From Candidatus Methylomirabilota bacterium (GTDB lineage: Bacteria > Methylomirabilota > Methylomirabilia > Methylomirabilales > 2-02-FULL-66-22), in assembly GCA_016180655.1 (NCBI GenBank), contig JACPAT010000127.1, positions 1-34,378 on the forward strand: a stretch of DNA of 34,378 nt. Direction: 5' to 3'. The notes below the pieces were generated by a model. The model saw only the letters and a list, made by a program, of their open reading frames with translations, ran no database searches and was not told the origin of the DNA. The position numbers were made by a program, and so were the translations under genes. Positions 2,401 to 2,729 of the stretch are shown here, in pieces (position 1 is the stretch's first letter; each line of letters opens with the position of its first letter).

Positions 2401-2422
2401 ATCGCCGCCTCTGGGCGGCGAT
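2401..2422 (+). promoter_or_regulatory. Hairpin ATCGCCGCC-TCTG-GGCGGCGAT in the tRNA 5' leader (possible rpoD terminator: followed by TCTTCTCT)
   Basis: 9-bp perfect stem; a TATACT box lies just upstream. Confidence 0.6.
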
Positions 2423-2430
2423 TCTTCTCT

Positions 2431-2507
2431 GGGCCCATAGCTCAGTTGGTCAGAGCCACCGGCTCATAACCGGACGGTCCCAGGTTCGAATCCTGGTGGG
2501 CCCACCA
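2431..2507 (+). tRNA. tRNA-Ile2 (anticodon CAT, likely lysidine-modified) with encoded CCA
   Basis: Cloverleaf GGGCCCA..TGGGCCC acceptor, D-arm GCTC..GAGC, anticodon loop CTCATAA, T-arm CCAGG-TTCGAAT-CCTGG, ACCA end. CTCATAA favours Ile2 over Met. Confidence 0.9.
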
Positions 2508-2522
2508 ACGTGCAGTTGAGAA

Positions 2523-2604
2523 TGCGCGCGATGCGCGCGTGGTCAGAGCCGTCCCGCTCCATGAGCGGGAACGGTCGCAGGTTCGAGTCCTGCTGGGCCC
2601 ACCA
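2523..2604 (+). repeat. tRNA-derived degenerate copy 1: hairpin GCGCGC-GAT-GCGCGC replaces the 5' part, followed by the tRNA 3' part ending TGGGCCCACCA
   Basis: TGGTCAGAGCC + anticodon-like stem-loop CCCGC-TCCATGA-GCGGG + T-arm GCAGG-TTCGAGT-CCTGC + TGGGCCCACCA; no GGGCCCA 5' acceptor strand. Confidence 0.85.
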
Positions 2605-2620
2605 CGCCGTAATTGTTCTT

Positions 2621-2678
2621 GCGCGCAGAGCGCGCCTGGTCAGAGCCGTCCTGCTCGAGAGCGGGACTGGGCCCACCA
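2621..2678 (+). repeat. tRNA-derived degenerate copy 2: hairpin GCGCGC-AGA-GCGCGC, TGGTCAGAGCC, anticodon-arm remnant, T-arm missing, TGGGCCCACCA end
   Basis: Direct alignment with 2431-2507 and 2523-2604. Confidence 0.85.
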
Positions 2679-2698
2679 TCCGAGAACCACCACGTGAG

Positions 2699-2729
2699 CC
2701 CTCGTGACGCACGGTCACGCGGGTTTTTT
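2699..2729 (+). terminator. Rho-independent terminator after the tRNA-derived array
   Basis: CCC-T-CGTGAC-GCACG-GTCACG-C-GGG followed by TTTTTT. Confidence 0.88.

Follow-up and report, generated by a model that had tools for sequence, protein, structure and literature searches.

Bacterial tRNA genes serve as homing sites for group I introns, and endonuclease genes are sometimes present in these introns. Such introns interrupt a functional tRNA and then splice out. The accessible text of PMC3984707 deals with group I introns in bacterial tRNA genes. SegB of phages T4 and T6 is presented in the accessible text of PMC13096335 (its reference 26) as a free-standing GIY-YIG homing endonuclease that cuts within tRNA genes, and the same text reports that SegB drives tandem amplification of the tRNA together with segB by recombination. 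The open-access literature thus contains phage SegB-tRNA links and intron-borne GIY-YIG enzymes. In that literature, which was the scope of the search, we found no account of hairpin-substituted tRNA copies arrayed on chromosomes, and novelty is therefore provisional.

The array described here was found in a Methylomirabilota (NC10) assembly, on contig JACPAT010000127.1, whose 34,378 nucleotides are the whole stretch of DNA analysed and are referred to as the window. It sits 3' of rpoD (512-2332), and all of its features are on the + strand. After rpoD come a promoter-like site of sigma-70-like sequence (TGGACT-18-TATACT, 2367-2396), a leader hairpin (GATCGCCGCC-TCTG-GGCGGCGATT, 2400-2423, fold -18 kcal/mol), an intact tRNA-Ile2 with anticodon CAU and T-stem type CCAGG/CCTGG (2431-2507), unit 1 (2524-2604), unit 2 (2621-2678) and an intrinsic-terminator-like hairpin (2703-2729). 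The promoter-like site is identical in the same-genus relative G001 and its -10 element is kept in a second relative, G005, while the leader hairpin is kept in both.

Unit 1 follows a 16-nt spacer (2508-2523), the place where, in the cassettes found elsewhere, a GIY-YIG gene sits between the tRNA and its copy. It opens with the hairpin GCGCGC-GAT-GCGCGC at the D-loop position (2524-2538) and continues with tRNA positions 17-27 (TGGTCAGAGCC, 2540-2550), a substituted anticodon arm, TCCCGCTCCATGAGCGGGA, that reads TCCCGCTC-CAT-GAGCGGGA and has the form TCCCG..CGGGA (2552-2570), and the tRNA 3' part to CCA (2573-2604), with the T-stem GCAGG/CCTGC. A second 16-nt spacer (2605-2620) leads to the hairpin of unit 2, GCGCGC-AGA-GCGCGC (2621-2635), which is followed by the same positions 17-27 (2637-2647), the substituted anticodon arm TCCTGCTCGAGAGCGGGA with one G-T pair (2649-2666), and the acceptor 3' strand plus CCA without a T-arm (2667-2678). 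The acceptor 5' strand is absent from both units, so neither is a complete cloverleaf. By chance, 0.03 occurrences of GCGCGC-N3-GCGCGC and 0.04 of TGGTCAGAGCC would be expected in the window, where two and three, respectively, were observed.

An earlier note, made from the letters of this stretch, had given the coordinates and sequences of the array, and these were correct on rechecking. Its account of an intact tRNA-Ile2 with its own leader hairpin, then two partial copies (2540-2604 and 2637-2678 for the copies proper), each preceded by a hairpin that ends one base 5' of TGGTCAGAGCC, was confirmed, as were the loss of the T-arm in the second copy and the presence of a terminator, or at least a terminator-like site, after the last unit. 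It had also stated that the 5' acceptor and the 5' strand of the D-arm were replaced. The 5' replacement holds, with the start lying inside the D-loop, at position 17 and just 5' of G18 G19 in both units, but the note missed the replacement of the anticodon arm. The covariance-model scan that it proposed, run with the Rfam tRNA model, reported the intact tRNA-Ile2 at 68.7 bits and gave no match to units 1 and 2 at E up to 1. ARAGORN called unit 1 (2524-2604) a tRNA-Met, which is a false call for a unit without an acceptor 5' strand. Sub-threshold Rfam matches to Pseudomonas P11 and Plastid-ycf2 were likewise rejected, as they reflect tRNA-like sequence and not membership.

The region downstream of rpoD was compared in six genomes of the same genus (G001-G006). 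One unit is present at the same place in two of the six, G001 and G005 (contigs JACQXP010000235 and METI01000184), with the hairpins GCGTGCCC-AGCC-GGGCACGC and GCGTGCTC-GGCC-GGGCACGC, respectively. In G001/G005, pairing of this stem survives a C-G to T-A change. No recognisable unit was present at tRNA-Ile2 in G002, G003, G004 and G006, and no derived copy was present within 1 kb of tRNA-Ile2 in 27 further loci. When the pattern TGGTNAGNGCCGTCCY..GCGGGA was searched in GTDB genomes, 24 stretches were returned, but only those of G001 and G005 had a tRNA context; the rest, where checked, were without a tRNA.

Upstream, the window and its closest relative, G001, are nearly identical: 98.9% over the end of rpoD, and 100% over both tRNA positions 1-26 and the 98-bp intergenic region that precedes them. 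Within the tRNA, the two sequences first part at position 27. Past the anticodon arm, identity falls to 84% for what remains of the tRNA; it is 44% for the spacer, 50% for the hairpin and 76% for the rest of unit 1, and it returns to 95% (87/92 bases) in the terminator region, which forms the right boundary of the exchanged stretch. Since near-identical flanks enclose a divergent stretch, the segment from tRNA position 27 through unit 1 is a block exchange with sharp ends rather than the product of slow decay. The T-stems are in line with this. The window has CCAGG in the tRNA and GCAGG in unit 1, whereas G005 has GCAGG in the tRNA and CCAGG in unit 1. A third type, GGAGG, is found in the tRNA of G001 and in a displaced piece of G005.

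Similar arrays were found in the same genome. Scanning its 30 tRNA loci for same-strand partial copies identified tRNA-Asp, Asn, Ile2 and Ser(UGA), and weakly Pro. GIY-YIG genes adjoin tRNA-Asp and tRNA-Asn, and the two proteins tested matched Pfam GIY-YIG at 4e-17 and 1e-16. The Asp array consists of the intact tRNA, a short hairpin-bearing stretch, the GIY-YIG ORF and then the copy, in which positions 18-27 are followed by GTCCGCGCCGTCTGCGCGGAC, by positions 45-67, by an insert and by the tRNA end up to CCA. At tRNA-Asn, copies flank the tRNA on both sides, the arm is TCCGCC-N3-GGCGGA and the GIY-YIG ORF is upstream. The Ser array has an upstream copy that covers positions 1-42 and in which the arm is lengthened. 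Arrays at tRNA-Asp are also present in other families of the order, in G027, G012 and G025, the last with three tandem copies spaced by ~77 bp. At tRNA-Asn, G023 of these families has a copy, and G015 has an adjoining GIY-YIG gene without a clear copy.

Some further features of these loci were observed. Leaders of intact tRNAs and of copies (L112, L118, L125, L111) contain a sequence that is reverse-complementary to the 3' end of the tRNA (GGCTCCCCGGGCAGG in Asn, GCGGGGCCGAC in Asp). Several tRNA-Asn copies (L125, L118, L112) have a GTGAGCTTGCCCTGAGCGNAGCGAAGGGAGC-like motif, a REP-like palindrome, at the T-arm position. The GIY-YIG frames of L111, L116 and L136 run through the 3' end of the upstream tRNA (e.g. 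..RVRVPSAPP..), so their starts may be misannotated, and their stop codons fall within or close to the D-loop or arm of the copy.

The same arrangement extends to two more phyla. Relatives of the Asp GIY-YIG protein in a second phylum, 42-56% identical, start 10-40 nt past tRNA-Val, Ala or Pro (eight cases). Where the copy is preserved, the GIY-YIG gene is followed by GGTAGAGC, TCCCGA..TCGGGA and the tRNA from ~43-45 to CCA, and some arrays have tandem copies of leader, positions 1-25 and hairpin on the upstream side. A third phylum has tRNA-Asp copies with hairpins at the D-loop, anticodon arm and T-arm, together with a GIY-YIG gene; the D-loop hairpin ends directly before position 18, and the GCGCGC hairpins of the window nearly do so. 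The common anatomy, on the strand of the intact tRNA, is that downstream copies start at G18, upstream copies end after ~57 and the anticodon arm is a TCC..GGA hairpin. A GIY-YIG gene lies at most 400 nt from a tRNA at 10 of the 25 loci examined in Methylomirabilota, a set without the UvrC-type long proteins, and at 14 of 17 in the second phylum; same-genus loci are not independent. Each of these tRNA-adjacent genes (24/24) is on the tRNA strand. In a tree of the GIY-YIG proteins, Asp- and Asn-linked members group by label with weak support. No relatives of the Asp protein were found in viral contigs. In the Methylomirabilota set, ARAGORN found no intact tRNA at L132 and L133, which have tRNA copies or fragments. 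The 'tRNA-Pro' of L131 was rejected, as ARAGORN had read a hairpin-substituted copy and the true tRNA-Asp is close by.

The window array shares the copy start (position 17) and the TCC..GGA arm (TCCCGCTCCATGAGCGGGA, TCCTGCTCGAGAGCGGGA) of this anatomy. It does not share the GIY-YIG gene: no GIY-YIG frame is among the ORFs between 2332 and 2809, the search of the genome gave no match on the array contig, and none of the genomes examined has such a gene at tRNA-Ile2. This feature is variable, as tandem copies without GIY-YIG occur elsewhere (L185, L188). A covariance model built from non-Ile2 copies found unit 1, but its score (45.6 bits) is on a par with that of the intact tRNA (45.5 bits), and unit 2, with 9.6 bits, does not rise above noise, so we place the window array with the others by its anatomy and arm sequence.

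Among 32 hand-listed substituted arms, 31 start with TCC and end with GGA, 23 have TCCCG..CGGGA, and in 29 the stem is no shorter than 6 bp; the natural anticodon arms of the host tRNAs are mostly unlike them. When eight copies, none of them from the window, were aligned, the outer five arm pairs were seen to vary hardly at all, unlike the T-stem, so the substituted arm looks conserved in sequence rather than merely paired. The pattern GGTAGAGCNTCCCGN{3,11}CGGGA had 19 matches in 291 genomes, compared to one for the reversed control pattern. The H pattern was rejected as a diagnostic when used by itself: it matched 41 viral contigs, mostly ordinary tRNAs with a TCCCG stem, and no GIY-YIG was found nearby. 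TCCCG..CGGGA is a common natural anticodon stem in phage tRNAs, and for this reason it is not diagnostic alone; array copies are set apart by their truncated context and non-standard loop. Phage and plasmid records gave one weak match each, and a phylum of small genomes gave no H pattern with GGTAGAGC.

The GCGCGC hairpins may have an origin other than the cassette. The genus has a dispersed palindromic repeat with the core GCGCGC-ACA-GCGCGC, which occurs ~41 times in G005, and with conserved flanks rich in CCAATGACCAATGA, as read at three loci (L244 and L247 in G005, L246 in G001). The window hairpins were considered as copies of this repeat and rejected, since the ACA/TGT-loop form has conserved flanks and the window copies are without them.

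We consider it probable, at roughly 0.6, that both units derive from tRNA-homing GIY-YIG cassettes, as their scars or as non-autonomous copies, a reading in which we infer the cleavage site, the homing and the role of the hairpins. Autonomous cassettes would carry a small free-standing GIY-YIG endonuclease that breaks the tRNA gene around the anticodon arm, giving a left end with positions 1-27 and a right end with positions 45-77. Repair of the double-strand break would then copy in the donor, namely an intact tRNA, the nuclease gene and a substituted copy. In this way, the cassette would restore the tRNA between ~position 28 and CCA and would push the former 3' part downstream, as a copy that starts at G18 and whose anticodon arm has become a TCCCG..CGGGA hairpin. 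This displaced copy would not function as a tRNA and would presumably be left uncut. Repeated events would produce tandem copies, upstream copies would come from a mirror-image event, and the window would represent two stacked events with the nuclease gene absent. Nested insertion scars fit best, given that sister genomes have exchanged the 3' half of the tRNA together with the unit as one block. Phage SegB is a precedent for such a mechanism. One counterpoint to this model, however, is that the intact tRNA-Ile2 still carries the presumed target.

Another explanation is that the units are a functional tRNA-like small RNA, or a decoy of RNase P, RNase Z or a modification enzyme, transcribed with the tRNA. 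The promoter-like site and the terminator on either side of the array would suit this, as would the unit hairpins, which are paired in three species, in one instance through the C-G to T-A change. The whole array region also folds better than shuffles (z -5.9), although this includes the intact tRNA, and single units fold only modestly better (z -1.4 to -2.6). Moreover, a tRNA cannot form from downstream copies, which are without the acceptor 5' strand, or from the many upstream copies elsewhere that are without the 3' half, and four of the six same-genus genomes manage without the units. With little positive evidence here for the mimic or decoy that the earlier note had raised, we regard this explanation as unlikely, and it is less supported than homing cassettes.

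The units could also have been left by tyrosine integrases with tRNA-Ile2 as their target, as nested att scars of which each is the displaced attR of an island since lost. Integration at this tRNA does occur. In G004, tRNA-Ile2 and a displaced 3' piece are separated by an island of ~7 kb that carries a tyrosine recombinase gene (C55:77468-84523, L100). In G005, an attR-like displaced piece, the right end of another tRNA-Ile2 element, lies beside the common terminator on a separate contig (C196:25500-27060, L101). The swap of the tRNA 3' half is as integration predicts, and an attP with GGTCAGAGCC-TCCCG..CGGGA in an integrase element would be support. Against this, an attR is identical to the tRNA from the crossover on, and the displaced pieces of G004 and G005 start at the anticodon arm with its natural sequence, whereas the window units begin at G18 with their arm substituted. 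The array is also without an integrase gene, and the same anatomy elsewhere accompanies GIY-YIG genes. Integrase scars are therefore improbable and less supported than the cassettes; of what the earlier note had proposed, the nested insertion scars stand and the tyrosine integrase as their agent does not, which leaves its interpretation partly supported overall. With protein names assigned by eye, the G004 island also has a primase/helicase-like ORF, with a RAYT-like (Y1 transposase) ORF just past attR, and a MazF-like toxin and a probable antitoxin ORF are near the G005 piece.

The earlier note had named neutral decay of a tRNA duplication as the alternative. In the form of tandem tRNA duplications whose stems were perfected by template switching at quasi-palindromes, it deserves little credence. 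In its favour, the altered spots are all tRNA loops or arms, the loops are often 3 nt, and the anticodon is still present in some of them, as CAT in unit 1 and as GTC in copies at Asp. The presence in relatives, the exchange boundaries and the recurring TCC..GGA arm disfavour it, as do the clustering of copies with GIY-YIG genes on one strand and the outer stem TCCCG..CGGGA, which is common to copies at Val, Ala, Pro and Asp in different phyla even though the arms of these tRNAs themselves differ.

More tentatively, and less probably than not, the homing cassettes might belong to an undescribed, widespread class of mobile chromosomal elements that parasitise tRNA genes. Each would be a minimal cassette, with one GIY-YIG gene and hairpin-substituted tRNA pieces, that restores the tRNA on entering it, and nuclease-free derivatives, the window array among them, would spread in trans. 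If so, annotated pseudo-tRNAs or phage scars and small orphan tRNA-adjacent GIY-YIG genes would be parts of one mobile element that invades essential tRNA genes and leaves them intact, and a direct, testable function would be at hand for a group of small GIY-YIG proteins. ARAGORN-type callers and annotation pipelines may list the hairpin-substituted copies as real tRNAs.

Compared to known systems, the arrays resemble tyrosine-integrase islands in that these also restore the 3' end of the tRNA, with a displaced 3' piece remaining downstream, and they do so at this very tRNA in G004 and G005; in contrast, an island carries its integrase, and its displaced piece starts at the anticodon arm in natural sequence. 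Group I introns differ in that the functional tRNA of the arrays is uninterrupted, with the broken copies beside it. SegB, as presented in the accessible text, is alike in being a small GIY-YIG endonuclease adjoining tRNA genes, and the array proteins are likewise tRNA-adjacent. Hairpin-substituted partial tRNA copies are not described for SegB in that text (PMC13096335), and SegB is phage-borne, whereas the array proteins are bacterial, single-domain and about 80-100 aa long. If the cassette reading is true, tRNA homing of the SegB type would extend from phage to bacterial chromosomes.
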